From assembly GCF_011405515.1 (NCBI RefSeq), contig NZ_AP022671.1, forward strand, positions 4,393,501 through 4,457,500: 64,000 nucleotides of DNA, written 5' to 3'. Shown here in pieces: positions 1 through 13,144 of this stretch. Position 1 is the first letter of the stretch; every line of letters begins with the position of its first letter. This DNA is from Nitrospira sp. KM1 (lineage in GTDB: Bacteria > Nitrospirota > Nitrospiria > Nitrospirales > Nitrospiraceae). The notes beneath the pieces were generated by a model, which was given only the letters and a program-made list of their open reading frames with translations, did not search any database and had not been told where the DNA came from. Both the position numbers and the translations under genes were made by a program.

Positions 1-1421
1 GCAGCAGCATCAGCGTCGGTACCAGCAGTCTTCCCGCGAACTTTGCCGGCGGGACGGGCATCGTCAATATCTCCAATGGTGGCACCATCAATGGGACGGT
101 CTTTATCGGACAAGCCTTCAATACCACGGGATATCTCAACATCACCACCGGGGGACGCCTAACGCGTGGCGGGAGTCTGGGTGATCTGTTGAATTCCAAC
201 GGCATCGTGACCGTCGATGGAGTGGGCTCGCAGTGGGCGTCCACAAGTGGCAGTATCACTGTTGCCCAAAGAGGAAACGGCCTCTTGAAAATCCTTAATG
301 GCGCGACGGTCTCTAGTTCGGGCGCGGGCGTCGGCCGGTACACGACTGGCACAGGCCGCGTCATTCTGGATGGGCCGGGCTCGTCGTGGACCATGGGCAT
401 CGGCGGCTTGCAGGTGGGCACCGGAATGGCCGGCGGTCCAGGCCCCGGAGGGGTGGGGCTGGTGACGGTCACAAATGGCGCAACCATGACGAATCAGGGC
501 GAGGCGATTTTGGGGTACACCCTCCCCGCGACCGGCACGGTGATGGTCAACGGCACCGGCTCGACATTTACCAGTGCGTTCGACCTCTACATTGGTCGGG
601 ATGGGGCCGGTCGCGTCAGCATCACTGATGGTGCGAAGTTCCAGGGCGGGCCGGTCAACATCAATAGCCAATCTCTTCTGACGGTGGATGTCGGGACGGG
701 CAGTTCCGTCGTCAGCACCGCTCCCTTCGTGCTGCCACAGCTCAATAATAACGGGACGATCCGCACGGTCGCGAAGGCGACGGCAGCTAACGGGACCTAC
801 ACGCCGATTGTCACCTCCGGTGCCTGGGACGGCACTGGAAAAGTGCAGGCAGTCGGTGGCGTGTGGAACAATGCAACCCATACCATGACCGTTTCCACTG
901 CCGCGACCGGACAAGCCGGCATCGCCACGACGATTGACCGCTCGGTGACACAGCGCATTCTCATCACCGATGGCGCCACCGGCAAGCAAGTCGGCGCGAG
1001 CTTTCAAGCGGCGATTGCCCCGGCGAATCTCAGCTTGACGGCCTCGCTGATGAACAATGGGCAGTTGAGTCTGCTGCAGGGATTACTCGATCCTGGTAAA
1101 GCCATCTTAAGCGGATGGGATTTTTCAGCGACCGGCTACACGGCAGGAGATCCGGTCTATCTCTCGCTCCAGATCGGTGCGGACCAGAAGTTCTATGACC
1201 TCGATGTGTGGCACTACGATGGGACGAGTTGGGCGAAATATCTCAACACCGATCTGGCTTATGACAACACCTTCGCGAGCTTCGTCGCGACCGGCTTTAG
1301 CGGGTACGCGATCAGCGGTCTTGCCCCGGTGCCCGTGCCGGCAGCCATGTGGCTGTTCGGCAGCGGCATGGTGACTGTCATCGGATTGGCTCGACGGAGA
1401 ATGTCGTTCGCAAAGGCATGA
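1..1421 (+). CDS. Secreted repeat protein with VPLPA-CTERM tail (5' end outside window)
   Basis: The reading frame is open from base 3 with no stop, so the gene starts before the window and the TTG at 189 is not its start. The visible part holds repeats of the kind GxVxVxGxGSxW (about bases 201-236, 354-390 and 534-570), each followed by a stretch like xLxIxNGAxV. That pattern is the T5SS/PEP-CTERM-associated repeat known from autotransporter passengers and sorting-tail proteins, and predicts a beta-helix. A more ordinary beta domain follows. The C-terminus has PVPVPAAMWLFGSG, a hydrophobic stretch and ARRR, which is the VPLPA-CTERM signal read by exosortase D. It is expected to be exported by Sec, cleaved at the tail and placed at the cell surface. 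The sorting tail is certain by eye; the binding target is unknown. Confidence 0.85.
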   Translation, partial: SSISVGTSSLPANFAGGTGIVNISNGGTINGTVFIGQAFNTTGYLNITTGGRLTRGGSLGDLLNSNGIVTVDGVGSQWASTSGSITVAQRGNGLLKILNGATVSSSGAGVGRYTTGTGRVILDGPGSSWTMGIGGLQVGTGMAGGPGPGGVGLVTVTNGATMTNQGEAILGYTLPATGTVMVNGTGSTFTSAFDLYIGRDGAGRVSITDGAKFQGGPVNINSQSLLTVDVGTGSSVVSTAPFVLPQLNNNGTIRTVAKATAANGTYTPIVTSGAWDGTGKVQAVGGVWNNATHTMTVSTAATGQAGIATTIDRSVTQRILITDGATGKQVGASFQAAIAPANLSLTASLMNNGQLSLLQGLLDPGKAILSGWDFSATGYTAGDPVYLSLQIGADQKFYDLDVWHYDGTSWAKYLNTDLAYDNTFASFVATGFSGYAISGLAPVPVPAAMWLFGSGMVTVIGLARRRMSFAKA

Positions 1422-1496
1422 CGAGGATAGGTAGCATTTCATTGATCAGAGTATACGAAGTATAGGCAATCTGTGTTCGACAGAAAGAGGTTTGGT

Positions 1497-2381
1497 ATGT
1501 CGCTCAAACATGTCTGGCTTGTTCTCGTGGGTGTGTTGGCCACCATTCCAGTTACCGATGTGAAGTCCGTCCTGGCAGCAACCATGTACGCCGTCACCGA
1601 CGGCTGTGGACGGAACGCATGCGTCCCTGCAGCCAACGGTGTCGGCCGGCTCTTGGCCATCGACACGGTCACAGGAGTCCAAACGGTCATCAGTAACGAC
1701 CTTGGGACCGGCCCCTTGCAATCTTTGGCTGCCATGCCGTCCGGGCTCATGTATTCCGTCTCGCTCACGGGCCTGCTGATTGCGATCGATCCATTCACCG
1801 GCACCGCCACGAATACGGGGACCCGCCTTATCACGCCGGCGCCCCTCTATGCCCTGGCCGCGAATGCCAATGGGGAGTTGTATGGATTGGCCGGAGATGG
1901 ACTGGCGGGGACGCCTCAGCTCTACAAGATCAATCCCGCCACCGGGGCGACCTTAATCGGCGATTTGGGAGCCGGTAGGGGCGGCGCGGCTATGGATTTT
2001 TCACCTGACGGCACGTTGTATGTGGCGAGCGGCAATCGACTGGTGACCGTCAATACGGCAACCGGAGCAGCCAGTGCGCCCATCGGCCCGTTTCCCGATT
2101 GCTGCGGGCCCTATAGCAGCATTGCATTTGATTCGACCGGAACCCTCTGGGCCTCCTGGGAAAACGATGGCCGTGTCACAGACGTCGCGCCGCCGTATCC
2201 CGCTAGCGGCCGGTTATTTACGCTGAATGCGTCCACGAGCGCACAGACGTTGATGTTCGATAGCGGGTTGAACCCCACCATCACCGGCATCGAATTCCTT
2301 GCGCCCGTTCCCATTCCCGCGGCGGTCTGGTTATTCGGGAGCGGCCTCGCAGCGATAGCTGGTTTCGCGAGGCGAACTTGA
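1497..2381 (+). CDS. Beta-propeller-like secreted protein with VPLPA-CTERM tail
   Basis: The ATG at 1497 is preceded by AGAAAGAGG at a good distance, which is better than the in-frame GTG at 1473. The protein (294 aa) starts with a signal peptide (MSLKHVWLVLVGVLAT, about residues 1-28). The body has several repeats in the style of SMP-30/DUF4394 or NHL propellers: 'LxSLAAMPSGLMYSV', 'LYALAANANGELYGL', 'AMDFSPDGTLYVA' and 'SIAFDSTGTLWAS', each pairing a Gly-Thr-Leu-Tyr/Trp strand with a following 'TVNTATGA'-like strand. The end is GIEFLAPVPIPAAVWLFGSG plus hydrophobic segment and ARRT, the exosortase D sorting signal. It is a paralogue of the gene at 3449-4339 and of the decayed copy at 4445-4634. 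Ligand unknown. Confidence 0.9.
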   Translation: MSLKHVWLVLVGVLATIPVTDVKSVLAATMYAVTDGCGRNACVPAANGVGRLLAIDTVTGVQTVISNDLGTGPLQSLAAMPSGLMYSVSLTGLLIAIDPFTGTATNTGTRLITPAPLYALAANANGELYGLAGDGLAGTPQLYKINPATGATLIGDLGAGRGGAAMDFSPDGTLYVASGNRLVTVNTATGAASAPIGPFPDCCGPYSSIAFDSTGTLWASWENDGRVTDVAPPYPASGRLFTLNASTSAQTLMFDSGLNPTITGIEFLAPVPIPAAVWLFGSGLAAIAGFARRT

Positions 2382-2443
2382 CCACCGGAGTTTTCACATC
2401 TATCTCGCCCGCTCCGCTTGCTTTCGGTGTGCGTGGCATAGCA

Positions 2444-2554
2444 TATCCCGCGCCCGTGCCGGTCCCGGCCGCTATCAGGCTCTTCGCCGGCGGTTTGGCC
2501 GTGATCGCGGGACAAGCGCGACGAAGATTCCTGACAGTGAATGACCGGCCATGA
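2444..2554 (+). pseudogene. Decayed VPLPA-CTERM tail, remnant 1
   Basis: In one frame these bases read YPAPVPVPAAIRLFAGG, then LAVIAGQARRR and a stop at 2552. This is the sorting tail with damaged positions: W to R and FGSG to FAGG. The frame is open back to 2378, overlapping the stop of the preceding gene, but the 20 or so residues before the tail resemble no secreted domain and have no signal peptide. It reads as the 3' stub of a lost gene and not as a functional protein. Confidence 0.65.
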
Positions 2555-2617
2555 CTGTGTGCCGTGGTAAGGAGTCGGCAATTTTGCAAATGACCCGCGT
2601 CAACTTGGAGAGTAGTC

Positions 2618-2848
2618 ATGGCACAAGCGGCCACCCAGAGCACCGCTAAATTGATAGCTGTTTTTGTTGAAGCCCATTCGACCTTGGAAGCGTATTTAGG
2701 ACAAGGCGCCGTACGTGAATCTGAGCTACGGTCTCTCGCCCTCACCATCTCGGCTCTTCAAGTCTTTCTTGCGAAATGGAACCGGATTCGAGCCGGTGGA
2801 ACCATGATAGATACAGCTGTTAGTTTCTTGCTCAAGTCCTTGCAGTAG
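2618..2848 (+). CDS. Small hypothetical protein
   Basis: A 76-residue open frame starting with ATG and preceded by TTGGAGAG at 2606-2613. The protein is mostly predicted helix (for example SELRSLALTISALQVFLAKW) with no signal peptide, no Cys and no recognisable domain. It sits alone between decayed sorting-tail fragments. I do not recognise it. Existence is supported only by the ribosome site and the soluble amphipathic character. Confidence 0.45.
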   Translation: MAQAATQSTAKLIAVFVEAHSTLEAYLGQGAVRESELRSLALTISALQVFLAKWNRIRAGGTMIDTAVSFLLKSLQ

Positions 2849-3314
2849 AGTGAATCCTTAAAGAGAGAATCGATCAGAACTGTTCGTCACCACTCAATGT
2901 AAATTATTCGTCAAGGCGCCGCAGATCGCTTGACGAAATAGCCGCTATTCTTTACAAGGGTCGTAAAACTGCAAACATTGTTCTCCGCACGTAGGGCGTG
3001 TGGTGTCGATGGGGCGATCGACACTGCAGGGCGAGTCCGACGTTGAAGGAAAACCGTCGGTGTTCCGTATGCGAATCACGCGTGCGGTGCCGCTGGTGTT
3101 GGTCTGGTGCGCAGGCACCGGATGATTTTATCAAGGACTCGGACATGCCGCCCAATCCTCGGACCGCCGCTCCGCCTTCAGAACCAAATTCTCTCCAGAA
3201 TAATTGTGCGTTAAGACCGTTTCCTTCCGGCATGCCACACGAACGGGCTTACCCGGTGACATACGACCGACTGTCTGTGCGTCTTCCCTTCTTTCTCACA
3301 TGTAGGAGACTCCA
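2849..3314 (+). other. Intergenic stretch without a supported gene
   Basis: No convincing gene. It contains the direct repeat at 2899-2914 and a short signal-peptide-like reading (MRITRAVPLVLVWCAG from 3069) that stops at once, which may be the 5' scrap of another lost secreted gene. TAGGAGA at 3302-3308 is a ribosome site serving the broken gene at 3315. Confidence 0.5.
2899..2914 (+). promoter_or_regulatory. 11-bp-period direct repeat (GTAAA-N6-GTCAA)
   Basis: GTAAA at 2899-2903 and GTCAA at 2910-2914 are spaced exactly 11 bp. It is one member of a family of like sites in this window and is the weakest of the unmutated-spacing group in its first half. A candidate response-regulator site for the following secreted genes. 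Confidence 0.4.
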
Positions 3315-3397
3315 ATGAGACATGGTCTGCGGAGCGTTGCCTCTTCGGGAGCGGTCTGGCGGCGATGGTCGGGTTTGCGCGCGGGAGAGCCGCATAG
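3315..3397 (+). pseudogene. Gene collapsed to start codon plus VPLPA-CTERM tail, remnant 2
   Basis: A ribosome site (TAGGAGA, 3302-3308) and ATG (3315) are followed within about 20 bases by the end of a sorting tail in another frame: CLFGSGLAAMVGFARGRAA and stop at 3395. The flanking bases still resemble the codons for PAAVW. The simplest reading is an internal deletion that removed nearly the whole body of a secreted protein and joined its 5' end out of frame to its 3' end. Confidence 0.65.
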
Positions 3398-3448
3398 GTC
3401 CAGAGGGAATCAGCCTTTGAGACGCCAATTTTACGAAGGAGACTGTAC

Positions 3449-4339
3449 ATGAGGAGAGCAGGGTTTGCAGCTGTTCTGATGAGTGTATCGTTGGTTGGTT
3501 CGTTGGTCGCCGTAACTCCGGCAGCGGCCGACATGATCGGCCTCCAATTCTTCAAGGACAATTTCCAGATCAACTCGATCAACACGACGACCGGAGCCCA
3601 GACGGCGATCGGCAGTACGGGGATTGACAGGTTGAATTCACTCGCCGCGACGCCATCCGGAGAACTGTATTCCGTTGGAGGCCCAAACATATCCGATCAA
3701 AGCCATCTGGTCAGGATTGATCCGCTGACCGGAGCGGGAACGGACCTGGGCGCGATCACCTATGACATTGCTCCGCCGACAGTCGGTGGTGTGTCAGTCG
3801 GGGTAACGGGATTGGCCGCTGATGCATCCGGGAACTTGATTGCCACCATCTTCAGCTCACAATCTCTCTATAGCATCAACCCCACCACCCTCCAGGCAAC
3901 TCAACTGACTGCCTCTAATGGCGTCTCAACCAACATCGTGGGACTCGATTTTTCGCCGACCGGAGTCTTGTATGGAACGACACTCGTCAGTCGAGGGTTG
4001 GTCACGATCGACCCCACCACCTGGCAAGCCACACGCGTTAGCCCCGCATCATCCGCTTTCCCAAATATTCAAAGCATCGCCTTTAGCCCCGACGGGACGC
4101 TGTGGGGGATCGGCGATTCCATGGGCGACATCAGTGGGTCTGGTCGAATCTACACGATCGATCCGATAACAGGCATTGCAACACTTAAGTTCGGTTTGGG
4201 GCTGAGCAACGATTTCCGCGGCATCGAATTTCTCGCGCCTGTTCCGATTCCCCCTGCTGTGTGGTTGTTTGGAAGCGGTCTGGCGGCAGTAGTGGGCTGT
4301 GCCCGTCGTAAGATGGCCGATGACGCATCCATTATATAG
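3449..4339 (+). CDS. Beta-propeller-like secreted protein with VPLPA-CTERM tail
   Basis: The ATG follows AAGGAG (3436-3441) at good spacing. The 296-aa product has a signal peptide ending near AAA at residues 25-27. Repeated strands such as LNSLAATPSGELYSV, VGLDFSPTGVLYGT and SIAFSPDGTLWGI alternate with INTTTGA, INPTTLQ and IDPTTWQ, which fits a six-bladed-type propeller of the DUF4394/SMP-30 style. The end is GIEFLAPVPIPPAVWLFGSG, hydrophobic segment and ARRK. It is a clear paralogue of 1497-2381, sharing the GIEFLAPVPIP junction. It is predicted to be exported, processed by exosortase D and surface attached. Function of the propeller is not inferable. Confidence 0.9.
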   Translation: MRRAGFAAVLMSVSLVGSLVAVTPAAADMIGLQFFKDNFQINSINTTTGAQTAIGSTGIDRLNSLAATPSGELYSVGGPNISDQSHLVRIDPLTGAGTDLGAITYDIAPPTVGGVSVGVTGLAADASGNLIATIFSSQSLYSINPTTLQATQLTASNGVSTNIVGLDFSPTGVLYGTTLVSRGLVTIDPTTWQATRVSPASSAFPNIQSIAFSPDGTLWGIGDSMGDISGSGRIYTIDPITGIATLKFGLGLSNDFRGIEFLAPVPIPPAVWLFGSGLAAVVGCARRKMADDASII

Positions 4340-4444
4340 GGCACTTTCAATCGGATCGACAATCGGCAACAAAAATACTGAGGCAATCGTTCATTTACAA
4401 GTACTTAGGGGGATTGGAGTGAATTTTTCAGGAAAATTCATTTC

Positions 4445-4634
4445 GACAATACCACCACAGGAGCGGAGACCTCTACCGGCTCTATGGATTTAACCATTCA
4501 GCTCCTTGGCGGCATCGGCTACGGATCCCAATTTAGGTGGCATTGAATTTGTCGCGGCCGTTCCTGTGCCGGCCGCGGTATGGCTCTTCGGCAGCGGATT
4601 GGCCGCCATCGTCGGCTTGGCGCGGCGGAAGGGC
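4445..4634 (+). pseudogene. Decayed propeller/VPLPA-CTERM gene, remnant 3
   Basis: From 4445 one frame reads DNTTTGAETSTGSMDL, matching the INTTTGAQTAIGS strand of the gene just upstream. After a frame change, from about 4518, it reads DPNLGGIEFVAAVPVPAAVW, then LFGSGLAAIVGLARRK. The middle of the protein is missing and the frames differ, so this is a deleted and frameshifted third copy of the propeller family. The tail itself is perfectly preserved, so the loss is recent or the tail was refreshed by recombination. Confidence 0.7.
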
Positions 4635-4714
4635 ATCTTAGCGCAGGTGGTATGTAGTCAGGTCTTTTTTACAACCTGTGACTTGGGACTTGTCGTTCCA
4701 AGAAAGGAGTGCCA

Positions 4715-5572
4715 ATGCGAAAGGGCGTGCTTATATTATCCGCTGTGATGTGCGGTGTGATCATCCAACCCGGAGTGAGCCTGGCGGAGTCGGTATTCAC
4801 CGTCAGCACGGCGACGAAGGATGCATTCCTAGCCAACGGTTCATTGTTCAATGCGGGACCTCCGCCGACTGGTAATCCCGTCTGCAGTACGAATTGCGCA
4901 AATCTGAACTTCGGCGGAGCAGGCACGCTGGCGATTGCGCCGGCGTCTTCTGACAAAGGACAGTTCGACAGTGTCGTGCAATGGGATACTGCCGGCGCCG
5001 TGACGCAATTCAATACCGCATTCGGTGCCGGCAATTGGCAGATCACCAATGTGTCGCTGAACCTGGCGAGCAACTTTGGTGATCAGGGGGAGCAGCCGAA
5101 TAACGGCATCTTCAATACCATCAACAACGGCCAATTCAACGTCCAGTGGATCTCGAACGACACCTGGATAGAAGGTACTGGGAGCGGCATGGGGACCAAT
5201 CCTGGAAGTCCGCCGAGTGTTACCTTCGGGAACAAGGCCACCACGTTGTTGACCGGCACGTCCGCGAATCTCGGCACCTTCGCGTACGCACCGCCTGGAG
5301 ACGGTGTGTATCGCTCCTATAGTTTGTCGCTTGATCCCAACTTGTTGAGCGACATTACCGGTGGCAACCTGGCTTCGCTGTTCTTCACTGCAGCGGATGA
5401 TCAGGTCGGCTATCTCTTCAATTCAAAGACATTTGCGGGCAATAGTCCGCAGTTCATCATCACGGCCGATGTGACGCCGGTTCCGGTTCCTGCAGCTGTA
5501 TGGCTGTTCGGGAGCGGACTTGCGGCGATGGTGGGGTTTGCAAGGAGAAATGTGAATCGCATGGCCGCGTAG
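4715..5572 (+). CDS. Secreted protein with VPLPA-CTERM tail
   Basis: ATG at 4715 is chosen over the GTG at 4709 because AGAAAGGAG (4701-4709) sits just ahead of it. The 285-aa product has a signal peptide (MRKGVLILSAVMCGVII, cleavage near SLAES). The body is Asn/Gly-rich and beta-like, with two Cys close together (CSTNC) and the phrase WISNDTWIEGTGSG, which resembles the DNRLRE/CBM96-type beta-sandwich where such a Trp-Gly-Gly strand is typical. The end is VTPVPVPAAVWLFGSG, hydrophobic stretch, ARRN. Neighbours are other sorting-tail genes. Assigned as an exosortase D substrate; domain identity is tentative. Confidence 0.85.
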   Translation: MRKGVLILSAVMCGVIIQPGVSLAESVFTVSTATKDAFLANGSLFNAGPPPTGNPVCSTNCANLNFGGAGTLAIAPASSDKGQFDSVVQWDTAGAVTQFNTAFGAGNWQITNVSLNLASNFGDQGEQPNNGIFNTINNGQFNVQWISNDTWIEGTGSGMGTNPGSPPSVTFGNKATTLLTGTSANLGTFAYAPPGDGVYRSYSLSLDPNLLSDITGGNLASLFFTAADDQVGYLFNSKTFAGNSPQFIITADVTPVPVPAAVWLFGSGLAAMVGFARRNVNRMAA

Positions 5573-5578
5573 GAGAGC

Positions 5579-5608
5579 GGGGGCGGTCGCCGGCAGGCGG
5601 CCGTCCCC
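5579..5608 (+). terminator. Strong hairpin after secreted-protein gene
   Basis: A 13-pair stem (two G-U wobbles) with a GGCA loop, beginning seven bases after the stop codon. No T tract follows, so it may stabilise the 3' end instead of terminating. Confidence 0.45.
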
Positions 5609-5685
5609 ATCCGTACCAATGGCCGCATGAATAGGTTCCCTAGCACGAGCATCTCACATCAACGAAATCAAGTGGGTCATCGATC

Positions 5686-7077
5686 ATGATGTCACTCGGG
5701 CGACCTTCCAAACTCGTACTCGTAGTTGGCCTCACGATGGCCGTCGGTCTCCCATTGTTGGAGGCTAGCTCTCAGATAGCACCGCCCTTTAAAGCTCAGG
5801 ACCCTGGTCCGCGGCAGACTCCAAGCAAGAGTGGAACCTCTTTCAAAGATCTGACGCCTACTCAACATCAGCTGTTTATCGACGGCCATCACGTGTTCAA
5901 CGAGGCGGCTTCTGTCCGGGGGACTCTGCCCGCTACGCGTCCAGGACTGGGGCCGCGGTTCAACCTTGACAGCTGTGGCGGATGCCATACCCATCCGCAT
6001 CTGGGTGGCACCAGTCCAAAGCTCAATCCCCAAGTGGAGCTGGCCACGAGAGAAGGTGCCGCCAATGAGATCCCGTCATTCATCACGGCGGACGGACCGG
6101 TCCGCGAGGTACGCTTTAAATTCAAACAAGACGGCTCGCGGGATGACGGGGTTCAAGCGCTCTTTACAATCAGCGGCCGCTCCGACGCGCCGGGCTGTTT
6201 CCTGCAGCAGCCGAATTTCAAGCGAGCGGCGGCATTGAATAATCTGAGCTTCCGCATTCCGACTCCCATGTTCGGCGCGGGACTGATCGAAGCAATCGAT
6301 GACGACACGATTCTCGCCAACATTCATGCCGACGGCGCAAAGAAGTTCTCGTCGGGCATTCGCGGTCGTGCCAACGGGGCCGGCCGTCCGAACATCGACG
6401 AGAACGATCGTACGATCTCGCGGTTCGGGTGGAAGGCGCAAATCAAATCCTTGGAGCTCTTCGTCGCACAGGCCTTTAACGTCGAACAGGGAATTACCAA
6501 CGACCTGTATCCTCAAGAGATCGAAGAATCGGCATCCTGCCGTTTCAACATGACGCCGGAAAGCACAATGCACCTCGATGCGGTGGTTCCTTTCGATGTG
6601 CTCAGCGATGTGGTGAAGGCGACACGGTTCGTCCAGTTCCTCGCGCCGCCAGAGCCATTACCGGACAACGAATCGATCATCAGGGGAAGGACGCTGTTCG
6701 GAGAGGTCGGTTGTGCGCTCTGCCACACGCCGATGCTGCGGACCGGCAACGCAACGCATGCTTTTTTGCGCGACCAGGAGGTCAAACTCTACTCCGATCT
6801 GGTGCTCCACAATATGGGCCCCGGCTTGGCCGACGACATCAACCAGGGGAGGGCGCAGGGCGATGAATTCCGCACCGCACCGCTGTGGGGACTGAGCGAT
6901 CGGTTTTTCCTCCTGCACGACGGACGAACGAAGGATTTGCTCGAAGCGATCAAGGCCCATGCGAGTCGTGGAGATTGGCGCTATCCCCCCTCTGAAGCCA
7001 ATGATGTCATTGTACGATTCGACCGGTTAACGGAAATCGACAAGCAGCATGTCTTGAACTTCCTCCGCGGGTTGTAG
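5686..7077 (+). CDS. Di-haem oxidoreductase-like cytochrome c (DUF1111/DHOR type)
   Basis: A 463-aa product with an N-terminal signal sequence and two c-type haem sites: CGGCH near residue 100 and CALCH near residue 345. The layout fits the di-haem oxidoredictase family (PF06537, formerly DUF1111), which is related to di-haem peroxidases such as MauG: long N-terminal domain carrying haem 1, then FGEVGCALCHTPML and a C-terminal segment ending LLHDGRTKDLLEAIKAH, with a conserved DGRA/T-type turn. It should act in the periplasm. The natural substrate of most members is unknown. It lies alone between sorting-tail genes, without an obvious redox partner. The start is the first of two adjacent ATGs; the ribosome site is weak. 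Confidence 0.85.
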   Translation: MMSLGRPSKLVLVVGLTMAVGLPLLEASSQIAPPFKAQDPGPRQTPSKSGTSFKDLTPTQHQLFIDGHHVFNEAASVRGTLPATRPGLGPRFNLDSCGGCHTHPHLGGTSPKLNPQVELATREGAANEIPSFITADGPVREVRFKFKQDGSRDDGVQALFTISGRSDAPGCFLQQPNFKRAAALNNLSFRIPTPMFGAGLIEAIDDDTILANIHADGAKKFSSGIRGRANGAGRPNIDENDRTISRFGWKAQIKSLELFVAQAFNVEQGITNDLYPQEIEESASCRFNMTPESTMHLDAVVPFDVLSDVVKATRFVQFLAPPEPLPDNESIIRGRTLFGEVGCALCHTPMLRTGNATHAFLRDQEVKLYSDLVLHNMGPGLADDINQGRAQGDEFRTAPLWGLSDRFFLLHDGRTKDLLEAIKAHASRGDWRYPPSEANDVIVRFDRLTEIDKQHVLNFLRGL

Positions 7078-7490
7078 AATCGTTCGGCCGGCTTTCGTTC
7101 TCTTACCTGGAGCTCTGTGCCGTTTGCGAAATGGTGTGAATGGCTCAGTGCGGCACCCTCTCCACGCTATCGGGGGACTCTTCTCGGATCTGACCGATGT
7201 TTTCCGAGCGTGGGCTCCCCCAGGGTATATTCCGTTTGTCATAAATACATGACACGTGCAGTGGACGACGACTGCAGACGGCTCTTCCGTTAATTCTTTG
7301 TCAAACGTGAGATGTCCTGCTTGACCAGCCAACGGACATTCCCATAGGGTCAGGCCATCGCTCTTGAAGGATCATGATTGATTCATCCGATGGTTGACCG
7401 TGTGGGGGCGACACAGGGGTTGCCGGCGGCGTTCTCTTGGTGTGACTTGCGCGGTCGTGTAGAGGGGGCAAGTAATTAGGAGGAGGTGCG
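7078..7490 (+). other. Intergenic stretch upstream of paired sorting-tail genes
   Basis: No gene is supported. It carries the direct repeat at 7289-7304, a TAGGGT element at 7345-7350 and the ribosome site GGAGGAGG just before 7491. Confidence 0.5.
7289..7304 (+). promoter_or_regulatory. 11-bp-period direct repeat (GTTAA-N6-GTCAA)
   Basis: GTTAA at 7289-7293 and GTCAA at 7300-7304. A good match to the family, about 190 bp ahead of the 7491/8369 gene pair, with TAGGGT 56 bp downstream of the first half-site. Confidence 0.5.
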
Positions 7491-8372
7491 ATGCAATCAT
7501 CGATTCATACGAAGATCGGCGGGTTGCCTGTGCTTCTGCTCTCGGTGATGGTTGCTGCCGGGCTCAGCCCAACAACCGCGTCAGCTGTTACGGTGACGCT
7601 CGGGGCAGGGAAAGCATCAACGATTTTTGAAAATCAGCCTGACAACAGCATCGGACGAGGGCCGGGCGTTTTTGCCGGAGGCGACAGCAACGGCTCGCCC
7701 CGGCGCGGACTCATTGATTTCAATGTCGCCGCCAATATTCCCGTGGGGGCGATAATTACGAGCGCTCAACTCAGTTTATATTTGGGGGCCGTGGGTGTGT
7801 CGGACACCGGAACTCCCGATTCCGTCTCGAGAATGGTGGAACTGCACCGGCTCGTCGGTGACTGGGCTCACGGACCGACAGGATTGGGAGTGGTCTCCAT
7901 TGATGGAACCGATCAGGGATATCCTGCCGTCCCTCCCAGCCCTACCTGGAATGAACGGCGGTATCAGCAGAATCAGCCCTGGTCGACACCAGGAGGAGAC
8001 TTCAAGCCGGCGGCGAGTGCGACGACGCTCGTGGGGCAGCAACTCAACACCGCATACACCTGGTTATCGACACCGGATTTGGTGGCGGATGTGCAATTCA
8101 TGCTTGATCAACCGTCGTTGGGTTTTGGTTGGATGATTGTGAATCCGGATGAACGGGTCTCAGGATCGTACCGTGCGTTTTACACCAAGGATTGGACCGA
8201 TCCGCTCATGAGGCCTCAATTGCTCCTCACGTACGAACTGGCGCCTGTTCCCGTGCCGGCTGCCGTGTGGTTGTTCGGCAGCGGCCTTCTCGCCGTTGCT
8301 GGGATCTTCCGCCGCTCGTCTTCGCGGCATGACGCGAGTTCGACATTGTCCGCACGGGAGGTCGACCGATGA
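7491..8372 (+). CDS. DNRLRE-like secreted protein with VPLPA-CTERM tail
   Basis: ATG follows TAGGAGGAGG. The 293-aa product has a signal peptide to about residue 32. The body fits the DNRLRE/CBM96 beta-sandwich seen in many surface proteins: ATIF-type first strand, RRGLIDFNVAANIPVGAIIT, ARLSLY-like 'AQLSLYLG', VELHRLVGDW, a central PTWNERRYQ and a final MRPQLLLTYE. Such modules usually serve carbohydrate or cell-surface binding. The C-terminus is APVPVPAAVWLFGSG, hydrophobic segment, FRRSS. It overlaps the next gene by four bases (ATGA), so the two paralogues are translationally coupled. Confidence 0.9.
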   Translation: MQSSIHTKIGGLPVLLLSVMVAAGLSPTTASAVTVTLGAGKASTIFENQPDNSIGRGPGVFAGGDSNGSPRRGLIDFNVAANIPVGAIITSAQLSLYLGAVGVSDTGTPDSVSRMVELHRLVGDWAHGPTGLGVVSIDGTDQGYPAVPPSPTWNERRYQQNQPWSTPGGDFKPAASATTLVGQQLNTAYTWLSTPDLVADVQFMLDQPSLGFGWMIVNPDERVSGSYRAFYTKDWTDPLMRPQLLLTYELAPVPVPAAVWLFGSGLLAVAGIFRRSSSRHDASSTLSAREVDR

Positions 8373-9235
8373 CACGATCAACGACAATTTCTTGCGTGGC
8401 ATGTGTTCTTGTCATGGTGACGGTGCCGACAGTGGCGCGGGCGGAGTCCATTACGCTGACGCCATTCAAAGATGCCACGATTTTCGGTGAGAGTATCAAT
8501 CAGGGTGTCCCCAATACGGATGGTCAGGATCTGTTCAACCGGAGCAATGGCGCCGGACCCGGAATTTTTTCTGGGGGCAATGGCGCATTGGCCGCCCATC
8601 GGGCGCTGATTGAATTTGATGTGGCCGGTCAGATCCCGCAGGGGGCCCTCATCACCGGTGTGGCCTTGACGATGCATATCGGTATCGTGGCCGGTTCGGG
8701 CGGCGCCCCCGGTCTTGGGGACCAAACGTCACGGATTATGGACCTGCACCGGCTTACCGCCGATTGGGGAGAAGGTATTACGGGAGCAACGAGTACCACG
8801 GTTGGAGGAACCGGGCAGGGATTCCCCGCGAATCCCGGAGATGCCACCTGGAATGCGAGCCACTTTGGAAGCACTTTGTGGAATACTCCCGGGGGCGATT
8901 TTGACAGCACCGTGAGCGGGTCGTTGGCTGTCGGAAGCGTGTTCTTTTCTCCTCAGACATGGCAGTCGACGCCCGGGATGGTAACCGACGTGCAGAACTG
9001 GCTCAATGACCCGTCAAGCAACTTCGGCTGGATTCTCATCAACCATGATGAAAAAGCCCGACAGACGCACCGGGCATTTTACTCGAAAGAATGGACAGAC
9101 CCCGCCATGCGCCCGCAACTGCTCGTGACCTATGAATTGGCGCCGGTTCCTGTTCCGGCAGTCCTCTGGCTGTTTGGAAGCGGCCTCGTCGGTGTGATCG
9201 GGTATGCAACGCGCAATGGAATACGCCTTGCGTAA
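8369..9235 (+). CDS. DNRLRE-like secreted protein with VPLPA-CTERM tail, paralogue
   Basis: A 288-aa product with signal peptide and the same strand order as its upstream neighbour: KDATIFGE, RALIEFDVAGQIPQGALIT, VALTMHIG, MDLHRLTADWGEG, ATWNASHFG, WTDPAMRPQLLVTYELAPV. The tail is PVPVPAVLWLFGSG, hydrophobic segment, ATRN, slightly weaker than usual because the basic cluster is thin. The ATG lies in the TGA of the preceding gene. Tandem duplication of a whole substrate gene is the simplest origin. The two may be co-displayed. Confidence 0.9.
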   Translation: MTRSTTISCVACVLVMVTVPTVARAESITLTPFKDATIFGESINQGVPNTDGQDLFNRSNGAGPGIFSGGNGALAAHRALIEFDVAGQIPQGALITGVALTMHIGIVAGSGGAPGLGDQTSRIMDLHRLTADWGEGITGATSTTVGGTGQGFPANPGDATWNASHFGSTLWNTPGGDFDSTVSGSLAVGSVFFSPQTWQSTPGMVTDVQNWLNDPSSNFGWILINHDEKARQTHRAFYSKEWTDPAMRPQLLVTYELAPVPVPAVLWLFGSGLVGVIGYATRNGIRLA

Positions 9236-9298
9236 CGTGGTGCGGAACCCTTCTTCATCAGCCTGATCAGGTGAATCATCCGAAAGGATTGATGTTTC

Positions 9299-10084
9299 AT
9301 GGATGGATCGATGGCAGGAGGAGTCGCCTTTGCGCTTTCGCACGCGACCCTCGAAGGCAAAATTACGATCGCGGTGCTGCTGGTGTTTTCACTGGCCAGT
9401 TGGTCGGTGATCGTCAGCAAATTGCTGCAGTTGGCCAAAGCGAGGCGCCGAAATCGAACGTTTCTCGACGCCTATTCGAAAACCAGAGGTCCGTTGGTCG
9501 TGTTCAGCAAGGGACCGATTACCAAGCTGCAGGGCTCGCCCATGTACGAACTTTATTACGGAGGTTGCGAGGAACTGACTGTCCAGCAGGAGAAATACAA
9601 GGACAAACGCATACCGCGTCACGGGATCAATGCCGTGCGGATTGCTCTGGAACGGGTGCTGGGCGAATGTGTGGTCAGTCTGGAATCGGGCATGATCGTT
9701 CTCGCGACGGCGATCAGCGGCGGGCCGTTTGTCGGTCTCCTGGGCACGGTATGGGGCGTCATGGATACGTTTTCGGGCATCGGGCGCGCACATCAGGCGA
9801 GCTTGACGACGATGGCGCCCGGCGTCGCGTCGGCATTGATTGCCACGGTGGCCGGTCTGATGGTCGCCATCCCGTCGCTGTTTTTCTACAACTATCTCGT
9901 GACCAAGATCAAAACACTGGTCATGGAATTGGAAAATTTCGGGGCGCATCTGGAGAGTGTCTTCACGGCGGAATTCCAGATTGAACGAAACGGAAAAGAC
10001 GAACCCGACGATGACATCGAAGGTTTCGGAGGGCCCGGACGAGACGGAGAAGATCTCACGATGGACACGGCTTCAACCCATTGA
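9299..10084 (+). CDS. exbB: MotA/TolQ/ExbB proton channel family protein
   Basis: A 261-aa inner-membrane protein. There is an N-terminal membrane segment (ITIAVLLVFSLASWSVIVSK, about residues 22-41), a cytoplasmic loop, and two further segments near residues 128-150 and 168-195 with the family signature GPFVGLLGTVWGVMDTF and VAPGVASALIATVAGLMVAI-like text. It forms the proton channel that, with ExbD, energises TonB. AAAGGA at 9282-9287 precedes the start. It opens a four-gene operon with exbD, tonB and a gspC-like gene. TolQ is an alternative name; the TonB partner favours ExbB. Confidence 0.88.
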   Translation: MDGSMAGGVAFALSHATLEGKITIAVLLVFSLASWSVIVSKLLQLAKARRRNRTFLDAYSKTRGPLVVFSKGPITKLQGSPMYELYYGGCEELTVQQEKYKDKRIPRHGINAVRIALERVLGECVVSLESGMIVLATAISGGPFVGLLGTVWGVMDTFSGIGRAHQASLTTMAPGVASALIATVAGLMVAIPSLFFYNYLVTKIKTLVMELENFGAHLESVFTAEFQIERNGKDEPDDDIEGFGGPGRDGEDLTMDTASTH

Positions 10085-10102
10085 GAATAGTGACGATCAG
10101 CG

Positions 10103-10522
10103 ATGCGACGAATGATGCGAGGCGGGCACGGTGCAGTGGCGGACATCAACATTACGCCGCTGCTCGACCTTGCCTGGGTGCTGCTCATCATTTTTATCAT
10201 CACGACGACCGCCATGGTACAAGGGATCGAATTGAACTTGCCCGAATCGACACCGCACGAAACGGAGATGGAGACGACGACCAAGACGATCTCCGTAAAA
10301 AAGAGCGGGGACGTGTTCATGGACGAAGAGCCGGTCCAGGTGTCGGAACTCGAAGGGATTCTCAAAGGACTCAAGCAAGCCTCGGGAGGGAAACTCCCGG
10401 TTGTCCTGCGAGGAGATGCGGGGGTCGAGTACCGATATGTGGTCGCGGTCCTGGACGTGTTGCAGCGCATTCCCATCGAAGATCTGGCGATCGCCACCAA
10501 GCCGATGGATGAGGGGCACTGA
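10103..10522 (+). CDS. exbD: ExbD/TolR family protein
   Basis: 139 aa. The N-terminus has the family pattern ADINITPLLDLAWVLLIIF: the Asp in this single membrane segment (LLDLAW) is the proton-relay residue. The periplasmic part (TISVKKSGDVFMDEEPVQ and VVLRGDAGVEYRYVVAVLD) has the usual ExbD/TolR fold. Pairs with the ExbB-like protein 18 bp upstream. Confidence 0.9.
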   Translation: MRRMMRGGHGAVADINITPLLDLAWVLLIIFIITTTAMVQGIELNLPESTPHETEMETTTKTISVKKSGDVFMDEEPVQVSELEGILKGLKQASGGKLPVVLRGDAGVEYRYVVAVLDVLQRIPIEDLAIATKPMDEGH

Positions 10523-10582
10523 TGCGTAGCCGCCCGGTTGACAGTATTACGGCGAAGCAGTTTGGTATAGTTTGCGTCAACG

Positions 10583-11248
10583 ATGCCAGGTTATCGGGGA
10601 TATCACGCCAAGAAGAAAGGGTGGAATCGATCCACAACCATCGTGGTCGTGGCGGTACACCTTCTTGCGTTGTACGGTCTGTACCAACTCAGCCGGACCA
10701 ACTTCCTGCAGGATCTCATCAAGGTGACGAAACTCACCACGATGCCGGAACCGCCAAAGCCGCCGGAGCCTCCGCCGTCCGAGCCGGCGCCGGAGCCGGA
10801 GGCATTGCCCGAGCCGACCCCTCCGGAGCCCCTGCCACCCACAGTGAAGGAACTGCCGCCGGAGCCGGTCGAATCTGCGCCTGCCGAGGAACCATCCCAG
10901 GCGCCGGACTCGGAAGGAGAGGGCCGGGAAGCTCCGGCAACGGACCATGCTCCGTTTGCGATCGGCAAAGGCGGGAGCGTGTTTTCCGGTTACGAGGGAA
11001 TCCTCACCGCGGCCATCCAGGCCGCGTATCAACAACCACCCGATCTGCCGGACAATGTCGATTATGCGGTGATGTGCCAATTGGTGTTGGACGAAGACGG
11101 CTACGTCCTGAGTTATCAACTGCTGAACTCGTCCGGGCATCCGGTATTCGACCGATCAGCGCAGTTGGCGCTCTCGAAACTCCGGCAAGTGCGTCCACCA
11201 CCTCCGGGAATGTCCCGCACGATCGTGGTCAAATTTTTCCCTCCTTGA
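10583..11248 (+). CDS. tonB: TonB family energy transducer
   Basis: 221 aa. One membrane anchor (STTIVVVAVHLLALYGLYQL, residues 17-36), a long Pro/Glu-rich spacer (about 55-115, PEPPKPPEPPPSEPAPEPE and more) that can span the periplasm, and a C-terminal TonB/TolA-like domain (about 130-221) with VDYAVMCQLVLDEDGYVLSY and ALSKLRQVRPPPPGM. It would transmit proton-motive force to an outer-membrane partner; no TonB-dependent receptor is in the window. It is 60 bp after exbD and 25 bp before the GspC-like gene. Confidence 0.87.
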   Translation: MPGYRGYHAKKKGWNRSTTIVVVAVHLLALYGLYQLSRTNFLQDLIKVTKLTTMPEPPKPPEPPPSEPAPEPEALPEPTPPEPLPPTVKELPPEPVESAPAEEPSQAPDSEGEGREAPATDHAPFAIGKGGSVFSGYEGILTAAIQAAYQQPPDLPDNVDYAVMCQLVLDEDGYVLSYQLLNSSGHPVFDRSAQLALSKLRQVRPPPPGMSRTIVVKFFPP

Positions 11249-11273
11249 ACAACGCGAAGGCGAGGCGGTCACG

Positions 11274-12224
11274 ATGCTGGGTGTGAGTCCGAACATGTGG
11301 CGGCGATCGGTGATATCGGGTCAGAACAGACGGCGCGCGCTGCTGGCAGTATTTGTCGTCTGCGGCACATTTCTCATCGCACACGTCATCAACGGAGTCG
11401 TGGGCGACACACTCATGGCGTCGGTCAATAATATGACCGCGGACCCCTATGTGGCGGGCATCCAGCTCGACCGTCGGACCCAGCAGGCTGTGGCGCAAGA
11501 ACGCGTGCAGGTCATCTTATCGAGCGGATTGTTTCCGCTGCCGACGCCTGAGCAGATTGCCGCCGCCCGAGGAGGAATTCCTGCCACGGCGCCGGTGACG
11601 CCGATGAATGTTGCGACGAAGATCAGCCTGCTTGGGATCGTCGGAGGCACCGGAGAAGACGCCCGCGCCGTTCTCGAACAGATCGGCAACAAACAGCAGG
11701 GGTTATATCGTCTCACCGATCATGTCCCGGATATTGGTCAGCTCGCTGCCATCGAAAAGGACCGTGTCTTGTTTCGAGCGGGAGAGCAGCAGGAATGGTT
11801 GGACCTCGCCATCATTCAGCAACGGGGACTTGTCGGTTCGCCTCTGCAACCGCTTTTGACATCTGTGGACGGGGCCCCCGCACGCACCAAAAACAAGCAT
11901 GCAACTCGCCGGACTATCTCGCGCAGCCAATTGATCGAAGTCACCGGAGATCCTCAGGCGTACCTGATGGAGGCCAGATTCCAGCCTCATTTTGCGTCTG
12001 GGAAGTTGGACGGATTTCAGGTTGACGGAATTAGACAGGTCGGTCTATTGGACCAGGCTGGATTGCAGAATCAGGACGTATTGGCTGCCGTTAATAACGT
12101 CGAAATTCGTGATCCGGGGAAGTTGTGGGAAATTTTCAAGCAGCTGCAGCATGAGCGGACGGTTCGGCTTCATGTCGTCCGTCACAATCAACCCCTGACG
12201 TTAATGGTAGACATCAGGGGCTGA
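11274..12224 (+). CDS. gspC: GspC-like type II secretion protein with PDZ domain
   Basis: 316 aa. A single membrane anchor near residues 21-42, then a region matching the homology region of GspC (ISLLGIVGGTGEDARAVLEQ, LYRLTDHVPDIGQLAAIEKD, RVLFRAGEQQEWLDL, about 115-180) and a C-terminal PDZ domain (about 230-312: GIRQVGLLDQAGLQNQDVL, AAVNNVEIRDPGKL). GspC links the inner-membrane platform to the GspD secretin. No other gsp gene follows: two terminators close the operon. Its place behind exbB-exbD-tonB is unusual. Either the rest of a type II system is elsewhere, or this is a dedicated TonB-linked adaptor. Confidence 0.82.
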   Translation: MLGVSPNMWRRSVISGQNRRRALLAVFVVCGTFLIAHVINGVVGDTLMASVNNMTADPYVAGIQLDRRTQQAVAQERVQVILSSGLFPLPTPEQIAAARGGIPATAPVTPMNVATKISLLGIVGGTGEDARAVLEQIGNKQQGLYRLTDHVPDIGQLAAIEKDRVLFRAGEQQEWLDLAIIQQRGLVGSPLQPLLTSVDGAPARTKNKHATRRTISRSQLIEVTGDPQAYLMEARFQPHFASGKLDGFQVDGIRQVGLLDQAGLQNQDVLAAVNNVEIRDPGKLWEIFKQLQHERTVRLHVVRHNQPLTLMVDIRG

Positions 12225-12233
12225 TCGTACAAC

Positions 12234-12280
12234 AAAAGGCTTTGAGGTTGGCACGCCCACCGTCTCAAAGCCTTTTTCTT
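12234..12280 (+). terminator. Rho-independent terminator of exbB-exbD-tonB-gspC operon
   Basis: Perfect 13-bp stem: AAAAGGCTTTGAG (12234-12246) pairs with CTCAAAGCCTTTT (12264-12276), and the T tract continues to 12280. It begins nine bases after the gspC stop. Confidence 0.9.
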
Positions 12281-12312
12281 CAGGAGTGATACGCGTCGCT
12301 CCATGAAGGGGG

Positions 12313-12350
12313 AGAGAGCTGTCGATATGCGTCGGCAGCTCTCTTTTGTT
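12313..12350 (+). terminator. Second rho-independent terminator
   Basis: Stem AGAGAGCTG (12313-12321) with CAGCTCTCT (12336-12344), then TTTGTT. Back-to-back with the stronger terminator 33 bp upstream, giving tight insulation of the operon. Confidence 0.75.
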
Positions 12351-12369
12351 TGGGGAGCATACTCGCTAT

Positions 12370-12385
12370 GTTAATTATTCGTCAA
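12370..12385 (+). promoter_or_regulatory. 11-bp-period direct repeat (GTTAA-N6-GTCAA)
   Basis: GTTAA at 12370-12374 and GTCAA at 12381-12385. It lies after the terminators and 150 bp ahead of the secreted-protein start at 12536, so it is intergenic if that start is right. Confidence 0.5.
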
Positions 12386-12535
12386 GATATGCAACGGTCG
12401 GCGGCACTGCGCATTCCTGGCGACTGCGCCACGACCTTTGAGTGGCGTGACCGATGTGAAACCAGTAAACTATTGATACATGGCGTCTCAGTCGAGAAAC
12501 GGCGTGACGCGACCGCTCGATCCGCTGGAGCCACA

Positions 12536-13144
12536 ATGACCATTCTTCTCACGGTGCTCATCCTCGGTGCAGCTCTCGTATTCCCACATTCGATCCGAGC
12601 CGATGAGACATCATCTTCCCAGTCCCACGGAAAGCATGCACAACAAGATCGTTCGCCGAGCGAGGAGCGATGCGGAACGGTTCGGGCCCCTTCAACAACT
12701 GTCGAAGGCGTTCAGGTGGAAACGTCGGACATGAACTTGTTCGAACAGTTCTTCGAGTCGATCTTGCAGGCGAAAACGGTTTTGAAGAAAGATCATCCGC
12801 AGAAGGACATTCTGCGCGGATACTGTTTCCGTGAGTTCCTGATCGTGATCCGCCAGGATCTCCAGCATCCGCATGCTGCAGGATGGGTACAGATTAACTT
12901 TGCGGAACAGGATGCGGCCCGTGTTCAGCAGGAACTCCAGCGTGCGCTTGAACAATCTCCGGTTTTCAAGCTCGAAGAAGCTGAGCGGAATAAGATCGTC
13001 CGATTCAAATTGAAGCCGGATGTGAAACGGGGAAACCGAAAGGCCATCCGCTTGGAAGTATTTGGGCCAGAGGGGTTTATGGTTGGATTTAATCAGTACC
13101 AGGAAGCCGGTGACAGGACCCCAGAATCTCCCGCCTCGCGCTAA
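12536..13144 (+). CDS. Secreted hypothetical protein
   Basis: The frame is open from 12350, but the ATG at 12536 opens a good signal peptide (MTILLTVLILGAALVFPHSI, cleavage near RADE), with TGGAG ahead of it, so it is preferred. The mature part (about 175 aa) has a low-complexity Ser/Gln/His stretch, then a globular domain with LFEQFFESILQAKTVLKKD and EVFGPEGFMVGFNQYQ. No family is recognised. It sits alone between a terminated operon and the sorting-tail gene at 13469. Confidence 0.65.
   Translation: MTILLTVLILGAALVFPHSIRADETSSSQSHGKHAQQDRSPSEERCGTVRAPSTTVEGVQVETSDMNLFEQFFESILQAKTVLKKDHPQKDILRGYCFREFLIVIRQDLQHPHAAGWVQINFAEQDAARVQQELQRALEQSPVFKLEEAERNKIVRFKLKPDVKRGNRKAIRLEVFGPEGFMVGFNQYQEAGDRTPESPASR

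Follow-up and report, generated by a model that had tools for sequence, protein, structure and literature searches.

Why should the genes of a Ton energy-transducing motor be followed by a gene of the type II secretion system (T2SS), and which secretion machine might such a motor serve? The question is raised by four co-directional genes of Nitrospira sp. KM1, a member of the Nitrospiraceae with a 4.5 Mb genome in a single contig (C1), that lie in the 64,000-nucleotide stretch analysed here (C1:4393501-4457500; hereafter the window, in which positions are numbered from 1).

The four-gene block and its motor

The order ExbB, ExbD, TonB and a GspC-like gene, closed by two hairpins, had been predicted from the DNA letters, and all four reading frames are in place, each with a match above a curated family cut-off. 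The first (9299..10084, + strand) encodes an ExbB-like proton channel of 261 aa (PF01618, MotA_ExbB, 104 bits against a cut-off of 22.9), the second (10103..10522, +) an ExbD of 139 aa (PF02472, 94 bits against 25.4), the third (10583..11248, +) a TonB of 221 aa (PF13103, TonB_2, 40.5 bits against 22, with TIGR01352 also over its cut-off at 36.7 bits), and the fourth (11274..12224, +) the GspC-like protein of 316 aa (PF11356, T2SSC, 33.9 bits against 27); the gaps between them are 18, 60 and 25 bases. A likely terminator, a hairpin followed by a T-run, lies at 12234..12276 (+; fold -20.3 kcal/mol, z -2.95), and a second strong hairpin with a short T-run at 12310..12347 (+; -33.1 kcal/mol, z -6.2). 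A scan with simple promoter and terminator consensus patterns returned sites at chance level only and missed both hairpins; the first has a long loop and the second a short T-run. The conserved neighbour at 12350..13144 (+), which we call postC, matches no Pfam or NCBIfam family and has homologues after gspC genes of the window's type in three other loci (L029, L114 and L122). Neither another gsp gene nor a Ton-dependent receptor was seen among the window's reading frames, as had also been noted.

The three motor families stand in the right order and carry the expected residues. Both threonine sites of the ExbB motor are present (GLLGTVWG and ALIATVAG), the threonine being conserved in 41 of 42 homologues at TM2 and in 34 of 42 at TM3 (the remaining eight were unmatched by the pattern), and the membrane aspartate of ExbD lies in PLLDLAW and is kept in 29 of 30 homologues; these transmembrane threonines and the ExbD aspartate have an established role in motor function. 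TonB has an N-terminal transmembrane segment, a proline-rich linker and a TonB C-terminal domain. The curated equivalog cut-offs are missed (TolQ 155 of 221, ExbB 114 of 206, TolR 83 of 127), and the window ExbB and ExbD, judged by sequence, appear to be divergent members of the motor family.

Two-partner secretion genes at the locus and in relatives

In two relatives, ACE_NIT13 (L022) and G064 (L122), a contiguous operon encodes TpsA, a PEP-CTERM protein, a PBP-like protein, TpsB, ExbB, ExbD, TonB and GspC, and a third genome, G015, has both operon halves on two contigs (L113 and L114). Since the same genes are contiguous in ACE_NIT13 and G064, the window block is most probably the distal half of a two-partner secretion (TPS) operon. 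The ExbB-ExbD-TonB-GspC order is found in four other genomes (L022, L029, G064/L122 and G015/L114). In the relatives synteny continues to postC and to modABC (named from translations of the reading frames rather than by HMM), both of which are also in the window. The arrangement, rightly singled out as non-standard in the original prediction, is thus a conserved one and more than a product of chance.

The partners of the block in KM1 lie 20–30 kb upstream of it, outside the window: a TpsB at C1:4380537-4382414 (PF08479, POTRA_2, 60.5 bits; PF03865, ShlB, 51.2 bits) and a TpsA of 1430 aa at C1:4373341-4377633 (PF05860, the TPS domain, 80.9 bits), which together have the domains of a two-partner (type Vb) secretion pair. 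While tpsB and exbB are directly adjacent in L022 and L122, they are separated in KM1 by 20.4 kb of PEP-CTERM genes. This stretch of about 20 kb (C1:4382414-4402799, which takes in window positions 1-9298) holds genes for PEP-CTERM and DNRLRE surface proteins, is missing from L022 and L122, and has the look of an operon split by local expansion or by insertion. At this distance from TpsA and TpsB, co-transcription of tpsB with exbB-gspC is now unlikely in KM1.

A second copy in the same genome (L004, C1:2171000-2183000) has TpsB-TpsA-ExbB-ExbD-TonB on one strand, with GspC and an outer-membrane-protein gene divergent from TpsB. The window ExbB shares 70% identity with the ExbB encoded after TpsA at that locus (C1:2173665) and appears by sequence to belong to a Ton-linked TPS clade; the window TonB is 55% identical to the TPS-linked TonB there. 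Two further KM1 TpsB genes (L144 and L145), like other TpsB genes of the same genomes, are flanked by neither Ton nor GspC genes.

A search for ExbB across GTDB genomes yielded 26 Nitrospira loci, 23 of them with enough flank, and a GspC-like gene is present in all 23. Two of these (L022 and L029) have the window's gene order; nearly all are of a second type (T-type), in which GspC is divergent from TpsB-TpsA-ExbB-ExbD-TonB. Among 68 genomes of the family, this TpsB clade occurs in 12, each with a linked GspC, and the ExbB clade accompanies it in 11 of the 12; in the twelfth, G015, contig ends interrupt the locus and part of exbD remains. Only one of the 56 genomes without the TpsB clade (G040) has a second GspC, and the association of two or more GspC genes with TPS across the 68 genomes gives a Fisher p of 2e-9, uncorrected for kinship. 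The association of TPS, Ton and GspC genes in Nitrospira is firm, and we are very confident that the window block belongs to a Ton-linked TPS locus.

Several other features of these loci were seen. In G040 a TPS-type gspC is paired with an outer-membrane-protein gene (L118, G040:C22), with no TpsB of this clade and no ExbB found in that genome; it is possible that the pair is a relic, or a sign of GspC working without TPS. In a draft genome (L108, G002:C68) the genes for TpsB and for the TPS-linked GspC both fall into two frames, through either sequencing error or decay, and in G112 and G159 the TpsB is accompanied by neither Ton nor GspC genes. A protein of about 505–515 aa regularly follows the GspC and outer-membrane-protein pair in divergent-type loci (L115:2075-3589(-), L116:17153-18700, L117:15561-17108 and L121:15802-17349), and by eye it looks CYTH-like (EREIKL...). 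Phosphate-type genes recur, with a Porin_O_P gene beside TpsA and PBP_like_2 proteins encoded within the TPS operon or behind it (L092:9917-11779(-), L092:18141-19676 and L115:15523-16809). ExbB matches of 45% identity in Verrucomicrobia were set aside; the loci inspected (L038-L040) contain ExbB-ExbD-TonB only, with no TpsB or GspC.

The GspC-like protein and the type II secretion genes

The GspC-like protein resembles the T2SS proteins GspC, PulC and EpsC in its architecture, with an HR (T2SSC) domain over its family cut-off behind an N-terminal transmembrane segment and a PDZ domain at the C-terminus. An AlphaFold model has an N-terminal helix (residues 11-53) followed by an HR-like beta part and a PDZ domain, both of them confident; Pfam matches to the C-terminal PDZ region are weak and below cut-offs, and its best match among solved structures is the EpsC PDZ domain (2i4s, E 8e-6), with PulC (5hj1) also matched. 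Unlike these proteins, it is encoded outside any gsp operon, away from gspD-M, and it falls below the GspC equivalog cut-offs (NF041515, 118.8 of 150; TIGR01713, 57.6 of 101.6). It is also separate in the GspC tree, where the main-locus proteins form one clade (99/99) and the window protein belongs to another of five proteins (100/100); the divergent-type copies are long-branched and do not form one clade. In the window-type GspC of Nitrospira ACE_NIT13 and ACE_NIT12 (L022:12002-13171 and L029:2219-3397) the HR domain is duplicated, as two tandem LLGVV...LYR.G...RVL.RNGTQEEWL units.

The host genome contains three GspC-like genes, two of them TPS-linked and the third heading the main gsp locus (C1:42-54 kb), which reads C-E-F-G-H-J-N?-L-M-K and has its own complete gspC and no gspD. 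The window gene is thus not the T2SS gspC of this genome. A complete gspC at the main locus is one of two findings that the original prediction had set against itself; the other, a lack of conservation of the gene order in relatives, fails. A reading of the block as T2SS only was rejected, because a separate gspC is present at the main gsp locus and because it is TpsB that accompanies the block. The proposed coupling of a Ton motor to a secretion complex stands insofar as the block is linked to a secretion machine, although this machine is TpsB/TpsA (type Vb) and not mainly the T2SS. We note that the only good GspD-type secretin with a strong N0 domain stands alone at C1:2347140-2348780, far from the main gsp locus, and that a PBP_like_2 gene follows gspK at that locus (L005:659-1750(-)).

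The T2SS side is more extensive elsewhere. In G005 (L111) the gspC neighbouring TpsB opens an operon, gspC-D-OMP-E-F-G, which is oriented head to head with the TPS-Ton genes; on a Cupriavidus plasmid (L160) gspF-E-D is head to head with PPIase-TpsB-ExbB-ExbD-TonB-porin; and in C. basilensis (L185) gspE-M occurs with a PBP gene and TpsA. TPS and Ton genes are thus linked to T2SS genes in all three, while in the KM1 genome the T2SS side consists of GspC only. The Nitrospira GspC genes, and those of the outer-membrane proteins, probably descend from such a neighbouring gsp operon; whether the T2SS link is ancestral or secondary, most loci retain only GspC.

The strongest competitor to a role of GspC in the TPS-Ton system is that it is an alternative T2SS C subunit, which would plug the single GspD secretin into a second set of clients and be co-regulated with the TPS and Ton genes while mechanistically separate from them. 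The well conserved HR region, the one solitary secretin and the gspC-headed operon of G005 are all in keeping with this, as are the presence of the T2SS gspG in all 12 TPS-bearing genomes (p 0.03, likewise uncorrected for kinship) and the co-regulation of the Pseudomonas aeruginosa hxc T2SS with pdtAB-exbB2D2-tonB4 (PMC2729926). However, the TPS-linked GspC proteins evolve faster and lie scattered beyond the compact main-locus clade, and the window-lineage gene is co-directional with tonB and not with any gsp gene. As a full account of the locus we consider this unlikely, if worth serious attention; on the narrower matter of whether GspC acts here as an adaptor or as an alternative T2SS subunit, the balance is roughly even. 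The evidence that points to a role for GspC in the TPS-Ton system is its linkage, and a search of the open-access literature turned up no paper that connects GspC with TPS or Ton genes, only unrelated ones.

The C-terminal strand of TpsA and a proposed mechanism

The TpsA proteins of these loci have a variable, low-complexity linker followed by a conserved C-terminal strand. Among 33 Nitrospira TpsA, 32 conform to V-x-I-x-V-[DE]-[VT]-K, with the V, I, V and K invariant, and the tail of the 33rd is IIQVEAKP; KM1 has IRVETKP and most relatives IQVDVKP. The more general form is IxV[DE]V (ITVEV in Proteobacteria), a pattern that was generalised after some Proteobacterial tails had been seen. Corresponding tails, all within the last 64 residues, occur in Klebsiella (ISVEI), Methylosinus (ITVEV), Aquabacterium (LTVEL), Variovorax (FTVRV) and Methylomagnum (IMVDV), the last with no Ton genes in the stretch read; in C. 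campinensis the recorded TpsA is divided among frames, and only pieces of it were read. The strand is absent from the three non-Ton TpsA of KM1, and only one of ten control TpsA has a motif match, 88 residues from its end. A prediction written before five new records were read was matched strictly in two (VTVEV and FTVRV); in the remaining three the equivalent position holds V[ST]VQV or I[ST]VQV, with Q for D/E/R, so that the element is present and the pattern was too narrow.

What might bind this strand? The TonB box of TonB-dependent transporters and colicins has the consensus [DE]-T-hydrophobic-x-V-x-[AG]. The TpsA strand is likewise a short beta-strand with a hydrophobic-x-V core in a disordered segment, and the core is present in the Ton-linked TpsA read; it differs in being the C-terminus of an exported protein and in having no leading [DE]-T, and is a putative TonB-binding element. 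In G176, a member of another family, the tail is GVTIEVDV and Ton genes are present, with no GspC found within the 20 kb read; because the strand is kept where no GspC is found nearby, TonB (or TpsB) seems a likelier ligand than GspC. Equally, the tail might add as a strand to a POTRA, PDZ or HR domain. Two other candidates were rejected: a TonB box in TpsB, as the N-terminal linkers before POTRA1 are not conserved, and a canonical PDZ ligand at the TpsA C-terminus, as the last 3–6 residues vary. We found no paper in the open-access literature that names a tail on Ton-linked TpsA.

The tail also bears on the possibility that the Ton genes energise uptake by a TonB-dependent receptor whose own gene lies elsewhere, with TPS, GspC and Ton genes brought together by one signal such as phosphate limitation. 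The recurrence of phosphate-type genes nearby (Porin_O_P and PBP_like_2), the PhoB/VreI control of the P. aeruginosa pdtA/pdtB locus (PMC4971064) and the putative porin genes after tonB in Proteobacterial loci would fit, but TpsB/TpsA is constant at the locus and no receptor gene is, and the Ton-linked TpsA share a tail missing from non-Ton TpsA; we regard this explanation as improbable. It is most improbable that TonB energy drives a T2SS-like complex exporting PEP-CTERM proteins or polymer, the cargo originally suggested: GspC does end the Ton operon and PEP-CTERM genes do surround the block, but what stays with the block is TpsB/TpsA, a separate gspC is present at the main gsp locus, and the PEP-CTERM genes are neighbours; those that interrupt the locus in KM1, between tpsB and exbB, are missing from L022 and L122.

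We therefore return to a Ton-linked TPS locus. The gene content, its co-conservation, the clades, the conserved tail and the intact motor residues are observed; in the following model all contacts between the proteins, and the direction in which they act, are inferred from these. The exbB-exbD-tonB-gspC genes would form the inner-membrane half of the locus, with TpsB as outer-membrane exporter and TpsA as the one giant surface protein exported. TpsA would pass through TpsB with its N-terminus leading, while its disordered end and the conserved strand at its C-terminus stay in the periplasm, where TonB, powered by ExbB and ExbD, might bind the strand in TonB-box fashion and pull, and so finish export, open the TpsB pore, or hold or release the exoprotein. 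The GspC-like protein, presumably a descendant of T2SS GspC, would be an HR-PDZ inner-membrane adaptor, on which the exoprotein or else a partner in the outer membrane docks beside the motor. For this model as a whole we see the chances as evenly poised; that TonB acts on the TpsA tail in particular is a tentative proposal, and more doubtful still is its extension to a class of energised TPS systems, in which a dedicated ExbB-ExbD-TonB pulls a TonB-box-like TpsA strand and a GspC paralogue serves as docking adaptor in Nitrospira. Counting against it is the textbook view, also that of PMC9355242, that TPS transport runs without external energy. Yet TPS loci of both Nitrospirota and Proteobacteria include a Ton motor; the model could explain why some two-partner secretion systems have a motor of their own, and the TpsA strand provides a concrete candidate for its handle.

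We know of no Ton operon with exoproteins of the HMW1A or HxuA type. These are comparable in that their C-terminal end is thought to stay periplasmic, holding the exoprotein at its TpsB (PMC5422565); they use a disulphide knot, whereas in the Ton-linked TpsA a disordered linker leads to a short conserved strand. The closest parallel is the PUMA3 regulon of P. aeruginosa, with TpsA (pdtA, PA0690), TpsB (pdtB, PA0692), ExbB, ExbD and TonB (exbB2/exbD2/tonB4, PA0693-0695) in one locus adjoining T2SS genes (PMC2729926, PMC7035377); in 2020 its Ton genes were described as a "still uncharacterized putative TonB system" (PMC7035377). Related loci occur in Cupriavidus, Klebsiella, Methylosinus and an Aquabacterium plasmid, and STN/sigma/FecR genes (VreA/I/R-type signalling) precede TpsA in the Methylosinus, Variovorax and Cupriavidus records. 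The TPS-Ton-T2SS neighbourhood is therefore already known in outline from P. aeruginosa, where hxc lies beside the pdt and Ton genes, and its relatives (PMC2729926). The Ton operons of the PUMA3-type loci have no GspC-like gene and contain putative porin, YbjN and PPIase genes instead, while in Nitrospira the ExbB is short, missing a long N-terminal part, and GspC is duplicated and dedicated. That this neighbourhood recurs, and that Nitrospira has either retained or recruited a copy of GspC, suggests a functional tie between the two secretion routes and the motor.
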